From Shewanella sp. 10N.286.48.A6 (GTDB lineage Bacteria > Pseudomonadota > Gammaproteobacteria > Enterobacterales > Shewanellaceae), in NCBI RefSeq assembly GCF_002873135.1, contig NZ_MCVI01000010.1, positions 85,964-119,975 on the forward strand: 34,012 bases of DNA. The letters run 5' to 3'. The position numbers and the translations under genes are program-made. The notes under the pieces are model-generated. The model saw only the letters and a program-made list of their open reading frames with translations, ran no database searches and had not been told where the DNA came from. The stretch's first letter is position 1; each line of letters opens with the position of its first letter. Shown here one piece after another: positions 1 through 2,110 of the stretch.

Positions 1-123
1 ATGAAAAAAGCCAAAGAAGGAAAATGTGGCGAAGGTAAGTGCGGCGGCGAGATGAAAAAAGCGGCTGAAGGTAAAGCCAAAGAAGGCAAATGTGGTGAAG
101 GTAAGTGTGGTGGTGCTAAATAA
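1..123 (+). CDS. hvfA: HvfA/bufferin-like copper RiPP precursor, C-terminal part
   Basis: The frame is open from the left edge and ends at TAA 121-123. The 40 visible residues are Lys/Gly/Cys-rich, with two copies of EGKCGEGKCGG joined by a Lys/Ala/Glu linker, giving four cysteines, each in an EGKCG context. Repeated EGKCG is the hallmark of HvfA-type precursors. In that family a DUF692 iron enzyme with a DUF2063 partner converts the cysteines into copper-binding groups, and both partners follow here at 279-1861. Family members are about 90-110 residues with an N-terminal signal peptide. The ATG at position 1 is therefore probably an internal Met and the start lies outside the window. Identity is strong from motif plus context. 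The modification and copper binding are family knowledge, not visible here. Confidence 0.85.
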   Translation: MKKAKEGKCGEGKCGGEMKKAAEGKAKEGKCGEGKCGGAK

Positions 124-202
124 TCAATCTGATGATTAGCAGGCTGATTTAGCAGCAGAAATCGATTTATAGCTTTCATGCCGATTAAATCTACGCCAAT
201 AT

Positions 203-226
203 AAGGCCTGTTATACAGGCCTTTTT
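203..226 (+). terminator. Intrinsic terminator between hvfA and hvfB
   Basis: AAGGCCTG (203-210) and CAGGCCTT (216-223) form an 8-bp stem with loop TTATA, followed by T residues. It lies after the precursor gene and before the enzyme genes. Partial read-through would keep the peptide mRNA more abundant than the enzyme mRNA. Confidence 0.85.
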
Positions 227-278
227 AGTTGGTAACTTTCATTAATTTAACTGATTAATTGTGTGTTTGAGGTGATAA

Positions 279-1112
279 ATGGCAAAACAAGCAACAGTGG
301 GACTGGGTTTGCGCCGAGAAATGCTTGATGAGTTTTGTCAGCATGTGCCTGATGAAATAAACTTTTTCGAAGTGGCGCCTGAAAACTGGATGACCCTAGG
401 CGGTAAGTTTGGTAAGCAGTTTAGGCAACTTACAGAGCAACATGAATTTTTTTGCCATGGTTTATCTTTATCTATCGGCAGCCCACATGCGTTAGATACT
501 GAGTTTGTTAAGCAAATAAAACGCTTTTTAGATAGCCATCAAATCAATATCTACTCTGAGCACTTAAGTTATTGCTCTGGTAGCGGCCACATGTATGACT
601 TAATGCCGATCCCCTTTACCGAAGAAGCGGTAACTTATGTTGCAAAGCGTATTAAGCAAGTTGAAGATATTTTAGAGCGGCCGTTTATTTTAGAAAATGT
701 GTCTTTCTACGCTGCGCCCGGCGCGAAAATGACTGAGCAGCAATTTGTTAATGCTGTGCTGGATGAGGCAGATTGTAAGCTGCTGCTTGATGTTAATAAT
801 ATTTATGTAAACTCAATAAACCATCAATATGATGCCGCTGAATTTCTCAGCTCAATGCCGACCAAGCGGATTGAATATATGCATATCGCGGGTCATTATG
901 AAGAATCATCCCAGTTAATGGTCGATACCCACGGCGCTGATGTGATTGATCCTGTTTGGCAATTATTGCAACAGAGTTATCAGCAACATGGGGTGTTTCC
1001 GACATTATTAGAGCGTGACTTTAATATCCCCAAAACCGCTGAATTACTGCAAGAGATCAATCAAATTCATCGCTATCAACAAGCCGCAAAAGCGATCAAA
1101 AGGAGTGCTTAA
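279..1112 (+). CDS. hvfB: DUF692 multinuclear non-heme iron oxidase (HvfB/BufB-like)
   Basis: The 277-residue protein belongs to the DUF692/MNIO family, TIM-barrel enzymes related to MbnB of methanobactin synthesis that use two or three iron ions and O2 to remodel cysteines of a precursor peptide. Visible family blocks are GLGLR near the N-terminus, HGLSLSIGSPHALD, SEHLSY, ENVSFY, LLLDVNNIYVNSINH, HIAGH, DTHGADV and LLERDFNIP. These supply the His, Glu, Asp and Asn residues expected as iron ligands. Length is normal for the family. ATG 279 is preceded by GAGG (269-272) at good spacing. The gene overlaps the next by one base (TAATG), so they are translationally coupled. The likely substrate is the EGKCG peptide just upstream. 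Confidence 0.9.
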   Translation: MAKQATVGLGLRREMLDEFCQHVPDEINFFEVAPENWMTLGGKFGKQFRQLTEQHEFFCHGLSLSIGSPHALDTEFVKQIKRFLDSHQINIYSEHLSYCSGSGHMYDLMPIPFTEEAVTYVAKRIKQVEDILERPFILENVSFYAAPGAKMTEQQFVNAVLDEADCKLLLDVNNIYVNSINHQYDAAEFLSSMPTKRIEYMHIAGHYEESSQLMVDTHGADVIDPVWQLLQQSYQQHGVFPTLLERDFNIPKTAELLQEINQIHRYQQAAKAIKRSA

Positions 1113-1861
1113 TGGATTTTATTAACACTCAACAAGCCTTTATGGATTATATTCGCGATCCCAGCAAGCCACTGCCACAAGGCATGACATTTGAGCGAAT
1201 GAATGTTTACCGTGAGCTATTTTTCAATAACATCAATGGCTTTGTGTCAGGCGCGTTTCCGGTACTGAAAAGTCTTTATACTGATGATGCATGGACCAAA
1301 CTCATTCAACAGTTTTTTGTAAGTTTTGACTGTAAAACCCCCATATTTATTGAAATATCCCAAGAGTTTATCTGTTTTTTGCAAACTCAATATCAGCCTG
1401 CGGATTACGACCCTGCCTTTATGTTGGAGCTAGCACATTACGAATGGCTAGAGTTATATATTGCCACTGTTTTCGATGATGTTAATGAGCAGCCAATTGC
1501 CAAAGACTTGATTACCGAGCTACCGCTAAAGCTGTCAGTGACCGCCACTGTGGCGCAATATCAATATGATGTGCAGCACATCAGTGTCGATTACCAACCC
1601 ACAGAGCCCAGTGAGCAGGGGCAAAGCTTTTGTGTTTATCGCGATGAACATGATGAAGTTAACTTTTTAAAGTTAAACCCATTAACAGCCCAAGTGTTAG
1701 CCTATATTGCTCAAGCCGAGCAATGTTACTTTAATGATGTATTGACATGGCTTAGCGAGACCTACCCACAGATGACGCCGGAAACCTTATCTAATGGCTG
1801 CTTGCAAATGTTGCAACAATTGGCCGACAAAAGGGTTATCTGTTCGTTAACACAGGCTTAA
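1112..1861 (+). CDS. hvfC: DUF2063 recognition partner of the MNIO enzyme (HvfC-like)
   Basis: A 249-residue protein with the DUF2063 N-terminal block: FMDYIRDP, then ERMNVYRELFFNNINGFVSGAFPVL, then a helical region with MLELAHYEWLEL. In HvfABC and bufferin systems this protein binds the precursor peptide and delivers it to the DUF692 enzyme; it has no known catalytic centre. The start codon shares one base with the hvfB stop, so the two form a tight operon. The middle part (about residues 130-200) is variable and the C-terminal third looks like a winged-helix-type fold. No DoxX-like membrane gene, often present in such clusters, follows. The next gene downstream is unrelated. Confidence 0.87.
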   Translation: MDFINTQQAFMDYIRDPSKPLPQGMTFERMNVYRELFFNNINGFVSGAFPVLKSLYTDDAWTKLIQQFFVSFDCKTPIFIEISQEFICFLQTQYQPADYDPAFMLELAHYEWLELYIATVFDDVNEQPIAKDLITELPLKLSVTATVAQYQYDVQHISVDYQPTEPSEQGQSFCVYRDEHDEVNFLKLNPLTAQVLAYIAQAEQCYFNDVLTWLSETYPQMTPETLSNGCLQMLQQLADKRVICSLTQA

Positions 1862-1990: not shown

Positions 1991-2110
1991 ATGAGTCAGC
2001 CGTTTAAAGACCCATTTAACATTATGTATTTTATTGGTTTTATTCTTGTTTTATTGTTACCAACGCTACCAGCGTCTCTATCTGCCTTGCGACTTGCAGG
2101 CTTAATTTAA
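1991..2110 (+). CDS. Small single-span membrane protein, 39 aa, function unknown
   Basis: The ORF starts at ATG 1991, preceded by AGGA (1977-1980), and ends at TAA 2108-2110. The product has a short polar N-terminus (MSQPFKDPFN), one strongly hydrophobic stretch from about residue 12 to 28 with a Leu-Pro kink, and a short C-terminus, which is typical of a small inner-membrane protein. Support for it being real: it is preceded by a ribosome-binding site and a CRP-like site, and followed by a clear intrinsic terminator at 2163-2190. It therefore appears to be its own transcription unit between hvfC and ybaN. I do not recognise the family. Small proteins of this kind are often accessory subunits of membrane complexes, but nothing here shows a partner. 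Confidence 0.6.
   Translation: MSQPFKDPFNIMYFIGFILVLLLPTLPASLSALRLAGLI

Follow-up and report, generated by a model that had tools for sequence, protein, structure and literature searches.

The evidence presented below suggests that Shewanella sp. 10N.286.48.A6 harbors a split oxazolin system, with hvfABC (a copper-peptide precursor and its two modification proteins) at the left end of a 34,012-nt stretch of contig NZ_MCVI01000010.1 (positions 85,964 to 119,975, forward strand; G000:C10:85964-119975, hereafter the window) and hvfX unlinked. The precursor gene hvfA and hvfX are probably switched on together by an extracytoplasmic function (ECF)-type promoter, with the sigma factor PRK12517 and its neighbor DUF3379 as the likely regulators. 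In the proposed mechanism, HvfA would be produced as a Sec-type precursor that carries EGKCGEGKCGG(D/E)MKKA blocks in tandem, HvfB and HvfC would convert its cysteines, most likely to 5-thiooxazoles, prior to export, and the product would, by analogy with Haemophilus HvfABC, bind copper in the envelope. Joint activation of hvfA and hvfX would proceed via the promoter TGAAA(T/G)-N17-GGTCTA, most likely recognized by the PRK12517 ECF sigma; the DUF3379 membrane protein would restrain this factor.

Alignment of 30 hvfA upstream regions revealed a conserved block of approximately TGAAAT-N17-GGTCT, and the two-box element TGAAA(T/G)-N17-GGTCTA is common to hvfA and the unlinked hvfX. The exact pattern occurs 5 times in the window's own genome, versus 0 times when read backwards; these matches lie upstream of hvfA, hvfX, a gene for a secreted-looking AhpC/TSA protein and another for a secreted-looking DUF2057 protein, and at L037, where no convincing gene was found downstream. 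Allowing one mismatch in the same genome yielded 13 matches, 8 of them new, versus 9 control matches, so that the new matches are at control level; these eight were mostly intragenic. Across 40 genomes, 51 exact matches were identified, in 26 genomes, versus 10 control matches. The genes that follow them, with family identity checked on one member each, comprise 12 hvfA, 6 hvfX, 4 msrBA, 2 msrP, 3 AhpC/TSA-like, 4 DUF2057 and 3 DUF417 genes, 2 genes for OmpR-type regulators, plus 15 further matches that are singletons or intragenic. A DUF417 membrane protein follows the element in L062, L320 and L321 (match of 65 bits to the reactive-chlorine protein RclC in L062, the one scanned, with a cut-off of 275), and an OmpR-type response regulator does so in L056 and L316 (L056 scanned).

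A scoring matrix for the element was trained on hvfA sites only (28 sites, 26 distinct, with L016 and L025 omitted from the 30 regions) and applied to other genes. Among the best-scoring 30 of 54 close hvfX orthologues (E<1e-80), a site was present in 30/30, with scores of 8.5-30.1 against a top score of 9.4 elsewhere in those loci, and four more hvfX sites score 7.1-16.1. For msrBA, 19 of the best-scoring 30 matches have a site scoring at least 7, versus 0/30 on the reverse strand of the same regions, where the highest score was 1.0. A named collection was also assembled by keeping 80 of 229 loci, each covering up to 10 kb on either side of hvfB (less at contig ends) and drawn from Shewanella, Parashewanella, Algicola, Paraferrimonas, Marinifaba and Pseudoalteromonas. 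The hvfA site scores at least 7 in 70 of these 80 loci, which include the training species, whose hvfA sites are therefore no independent test; outside hvfA, 65 matches reached this score in 3.1 Mb of strand, a background of ~21 per Mb. The analysis is computational throughout: what the sequences show is the gene identities and the two-box element with its conservation, spacing and occurrence at the sigma gene, while its role as an ECF-type promoter, the sigma factor that reads it, the inducing signal, the modification and copper binding are inferred. In other Shewanella the element also stands ahead of genes for methionine-sulfoxide repair (msrBA, msrP) and of one for an RclC-like protein, so the peptide is probably part of a regulon for envelope oxidant/copper defense.

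The window's own genome contains 14 PF08281 matches, five of which were classed by eye as ECF sigma genes. Among these five, only the PRK12517 gene (326 bits, cut-off 197), which is followed by a gene for a 234-aa DUF3379 anti-sigma candidate, presents the element near its own start, in the form CGAAA(T/G)-N17-CGGTC and within codons 6-15 of the annotated open reading frame (ORF). In a set of 30 PRK12517 sigma genes, 27 were located for matrix scoring and 17 of these 27 have a site of at least 7, while codon analysis used all 30. All 30 species share the same third bases in codons 13 and 14 even though residue 13 may be T, S or A, and only 4 of the 89 fourfold-or-more columns of PRK12517 are equally fixed, codons 13 and 14 among them. 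Judging by this pattern, the constraint at codons 13 and 14 is one that acts on DNA, and the true PRK12517 start may be Met18. PRK12517 was found in 57 of 60 genomes, being missing from G005, G037 and G054; the last two of these also lack hvfB. At E<=1e-3, the stretches around hvf in the 80 named loci yielded no close PRK12517-like gene, and the ECF matches in L272 and L299 are weak (25-30% identity). The PRK12517 ECF sigma stands as the most likely candidate to read the element at hvfA and hvfX, and the periplasmic domain of DUF3379 is predicted to resemble RseB. SO_3550/SO_3551 of S. oneidensis have been described as anti-sigma and ECF partners whose function is unclear (PMC8458880; here and below, statements on published work refer to the available portions of the sources cited).

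The classification of five genes as ECF sigma genes raises the question of whether one of the other four might read the element. We consider this rather unlikely, because the ECF L081 gave no match at E<=1e-20 in G018, G026, G056 and G059, where sites scoring 7.1-23.1 are retained at hvfA and hvfX, and the ChrR-linked ECF gave none at E<=1e-30 in 15 of 60 genomes, including the site-bearing G003, G010 and G011. The retention of RpoE (89% identical) and of an L076 relative (51-54%) in G037 and G054, genomes without hvf, is weak evidence against them, and the S. oneidensis promoters of RpoE and RpoE2-ChrR, GAACTT and TGATCC/CGTATT, differ from the element (PMC4336711). A comparably low probability is assigned to a plain HvfABC locus responding to copper alone via a copper regulator, with the element as a side feature. 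Copper binding has indeed been shown for Haemophilus HvfA (PMC13419390) and bufferins act under copper stress (PMC12452194), but the conserved upstream element, which recurs at hvfX, at msrBA and at a sigma gene, weighs against this reading, with no search aimed at copper-regulator sites having been made. Some observations do weigh against a shared element: a close hvfX is present in only 54 of 60 genomes, G006, G012 and G040 encode hvfB without a close hvfX, and in the window's own genome msrBA lacks a site (score 2.6).

The hvf genes themselves are an ordinary HvfABC (oxazolin) locus, with the following features at the left end of the window:

1..123, + strand: hvfA, C-terminal 40 codons plus stop, the tail of the oxazolin precursor (NCBIfam NF050137, 41.2 bits, cut-off 19.5)
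203..226, + strand: Rho-independent-terminator-like hairpin AAGGCCTGT-TAT-ACAGGCCTT-TTT between hvfA and hvfB (hairpin and T-run scan)
279..1112, + strand: hvfB, MNIO (DUF692) enzyme, 277 aa (PF05114, 359 bits, cut-off 25; NF003818 HvfB, 448.6 bits, cut-off 360)
1112..1861, + strand: hvfC, DUF2063/RRE partner, 249 aa (PF09836, 85 bits; PF22106, 87 bits; NF050145 HvfC, 282 bits, cut-off 142)

The profile matches above cut-off bear out the order proposed in the original prediction, an EGKCG-repeat peptide followed by a DUF692 (MNIO) enzyme and a DUF2063 partner, and the predicted start-stop coupling of the last two is seen as a one-base overlap of the hvfB stop and hvfC start (TAATG at 1110-1114). 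The label given there, HvfABC/bufferin-type, holds in its first half, given the HvfB and HvfC equivalogs, the HvfA repeat domain and the closest solved relative of HvfB, 3bww, itself described as closely related to HvfB (PMC13419390). Its second half is overly broad: the BufB equivalog scores 270.9 bits, under its cut-off of 310. Methanobactin was rejected as well, the MbnB model scoring 37.3 bits (cut-off 325). No match to a DUF2282 (Buf1) precursor was found among the four scanned proteins, a scan in which hvfA was represented by its tail only. A bufferin (Buf1/Buf2) cluster would share the enzyme superfamily and the DUF2063 partner, but with HvfB above its cut-off, BufB below and a precursor of the EGKCG-repeat type, this identity is highly improbable; the gene set itself is of a known kind. 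HvfB contains DVNNIYV (171-177) and VDTHG (215-219), aligned to 3bww, which would correspond to N175, D242 and H244, the residues required in H. influenzae HvfB (PMC13419390). HvfC is a relative of the solved structure 3dee. As for the cysteine-derived group, for which oxazolone/thioamide or thiooxazole had been offered, the group formed on HvfA, too, is now stated to be a 5-thiooxazole (PMC13419390).

Positions 1-123 translate to MKKAKEGKCGEGKCGGEMKKAAEGKAKEGKCGEGKCGGAK, 40 residues in which four Cys sit in two peptide-identical EGKCGEGKCGG blocks, as originally predicted. The left edge of the window is the exact end of a run of 704 N (C10:85260-85963), an assembly gap inside hvfA, and the 40-residue ORF is therefore the precursor tail only. 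The ATG at position 1 was accordingly rejected as the hvfA start, the gene beginning in the parent contig at G000:C10:85012, 952 bases upstream of the window. Because 704 N does not preserve the reading frame, the gap size is an estimate. Leftward extension of the contig, put forward in the original prediction as a check that could overturn it, instead revealed more EGKCG motifs and an N-terminus, MNSVKQTTVALALGAVVLTAGVSTSVEAN, that may be a signal peptide, as judged by eye: left of the gap hvfA reads MNSVKQTTVALALGAVVLTAGVSTSVEANPFGFEQ..., followed by two further repeat blocks. The full-length HvfA equivalog NF050188 scored 30.8 (cut-off 95) with the 40-aa tail alone as query. The shortness of the ORF visible in the window, only 40 aa, could be taken as the mark of a broken remnant, yet this is scarcely credible: the truncation falls at the N run, and both flanks of the gap match the two ends of an intact 144-aa HvfA with 10 EGKCG from Shewanella sp. 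UCD-KL21 (98% identity in HvfB). Full-length hvfA genes in the named loci carry 3 to 24 EGKCG (median 12, n=75), with 10 to 14 in 55 of the 75.

Within the genus, HvfB matches were found in 95 of 97 genomes. HvfX, a DoxX protein, is encoded elsewhere in the window's genome (NF050144, 234.4 bits, cut-off 80), and no HvfX-like gene was detected near hvfB in the 80 named loci at E<=1e-3. Divergent hvfABC clusters with linked hvfX and other precursors were observed at L182 (G005:C1:386000-398000) and L190 (G072:C4:48000-58000), with flanking genes that differ from those of the genus-typical hvf locus. The clusters of G005 and G072 have no element, and the neighboring ECF of G005 is of the TIGR02943 type, to which Haemophilus RpoE2 presumably also belongs. 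In G035 (L191, G035:C1:2993800-2997000), hvfB appears as a pair of overlapping fragments, one of which contains a stop; the adjoining hvfA is open and carries the element.

The closest known counterpart is the hvf/oxazolin system of nontypeable H. influenzae (PMC13419390), which likewise comprises an EGKCGEGKCG-motif HvfA, HvfB, HvfC and an HvfX-family protein. HvfA carries a secretion signal in that system; here the N-terminus is signal-like by eye. The H. influenzae precursor has three motif pairs and its operon includes HvfX, whereas here hvfX is unlinked, full-length hvfA genes in the named loci mostly have 10 to 14 EGKCG, and hvfA is followed by a terminator. A core of precursor, MNIO, DUF2063 and DoxX genes is also shared with the first type of Buf_EGKCG/oxazolin precursors described in PMC12452194, the available main text of which makes no mention of Shewanella, ECF or terminator; its rare extra biosynthetic gene cluster genes (PF00174, ferric reductase) would fit MsrP/MsrQ. 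In regulatory terms, hypochlorite leads to RpoE2-driven induction of msrAB and the doxX/hvf genes in H. influenzae (PMC7907618), and Neisseria sigmaE controls the same set (PMC2893595). Both RpoE2-HrsE and sigmaE-MseR place msrAB and hvf/doxX under one ECF sigma, like the regulon predicted here. The Neisseria -10 CGTCTAAH resembles GGTCTAAT of the Shewanella element, but its -35 GTMAGBWTT and 12-13 nt spacer do not (PMC2893595). The anti-sigma factors also differ, with the 67-aa HrsE in Haemophilus (PMC7907618) and MseR of the ZAS family in Neisseria (PMC2893595), compared with the 234-aa DUF3379 candidate and a PRK12517 sigma in Shewanella. RpoE2-ChrR of S. oneidensis is an oxidative-stress ECF factor of Shewanella, but has a different promoter (TGATCC/CGTATT), anti-sigma and targets (PMC4336711). 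Acting like an RpoE2-type regulon, but with a predicted sigma factor from another family, a different anti-sigma and hvfX located apart, the Shewanella arrangement would probably have the peptide made under envelope oxidant or copper stress.

The comparison suggests that the separation of hvfABC from hvfX with a common ECF-type element, together with the PRK12517-DUF3379 assignment, is new. No paper on DUF3379 with a sigma factor, and none on this link in Shewanella, came up among the open-licence PMC papers searched. HvfA-type copper peptides may serve as copper buffer, virulence factor or oxidant defense, and an element that hvfA has in common with methionine-sulfoxide repair and an RclC-like gene provides a direct prediction of when the peptide is made. 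The assignment also proposes a function for DUF3379 and gives a candidate regulon to a member of the Shewanella ECF sigma factors, a group described as largely unknown in 2015 (PMC4336711). In a broader reading, to which we give about even credence, PRK12517 and a one-piece RseA-RseB-like DUF3379 would form an undescribed envelope switch of Shewanella and its kin, directly controlling hvfA, hvfX, msrBA, msrP and the RclC-like protein and autoregulated from a promoter inside its own annotated coding start; ECF control of hvf would in that case have at least two separate origins, involving different families of sigma factor.

A hairpin and T-run 3' of hvfA is present in 69 of 80 loci (the window locus and 79 named loci; L282 is the one named locus of the 80 without an hvfA ORF), versus 6 of 80 equal-length control windows. 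This terminator probably makes the precursor mRNA more abundant than that of hvfBC. Downstream of the element, a 5' untranslated region hairpin, GCC(A/G)GC...GTTGG, has a stem of at least 6 in 60 of 68 leaders, a moderate enrichment over 457 of 1360 shuffles. The hvfA leader of Pseudoalteromonas haloplanktis ATCC 14393 (L309) contains a hairpin of ~24 pairs (-43 kcal/mol) between element and hvfA. Rfam returned nothing at gathering score within the window. Beyond hvfC, a 39-aa ORF at 1991-2110 (+ strand), MSQPFKDPFNIMYFIGFILVLLLPTLPASLSALRLAGLI, likely encodes a small membrane protein; homologues (E<=1e-5) occur in 55 of the 80 named loci, and those whose position was examined lie 3' of hvfC.
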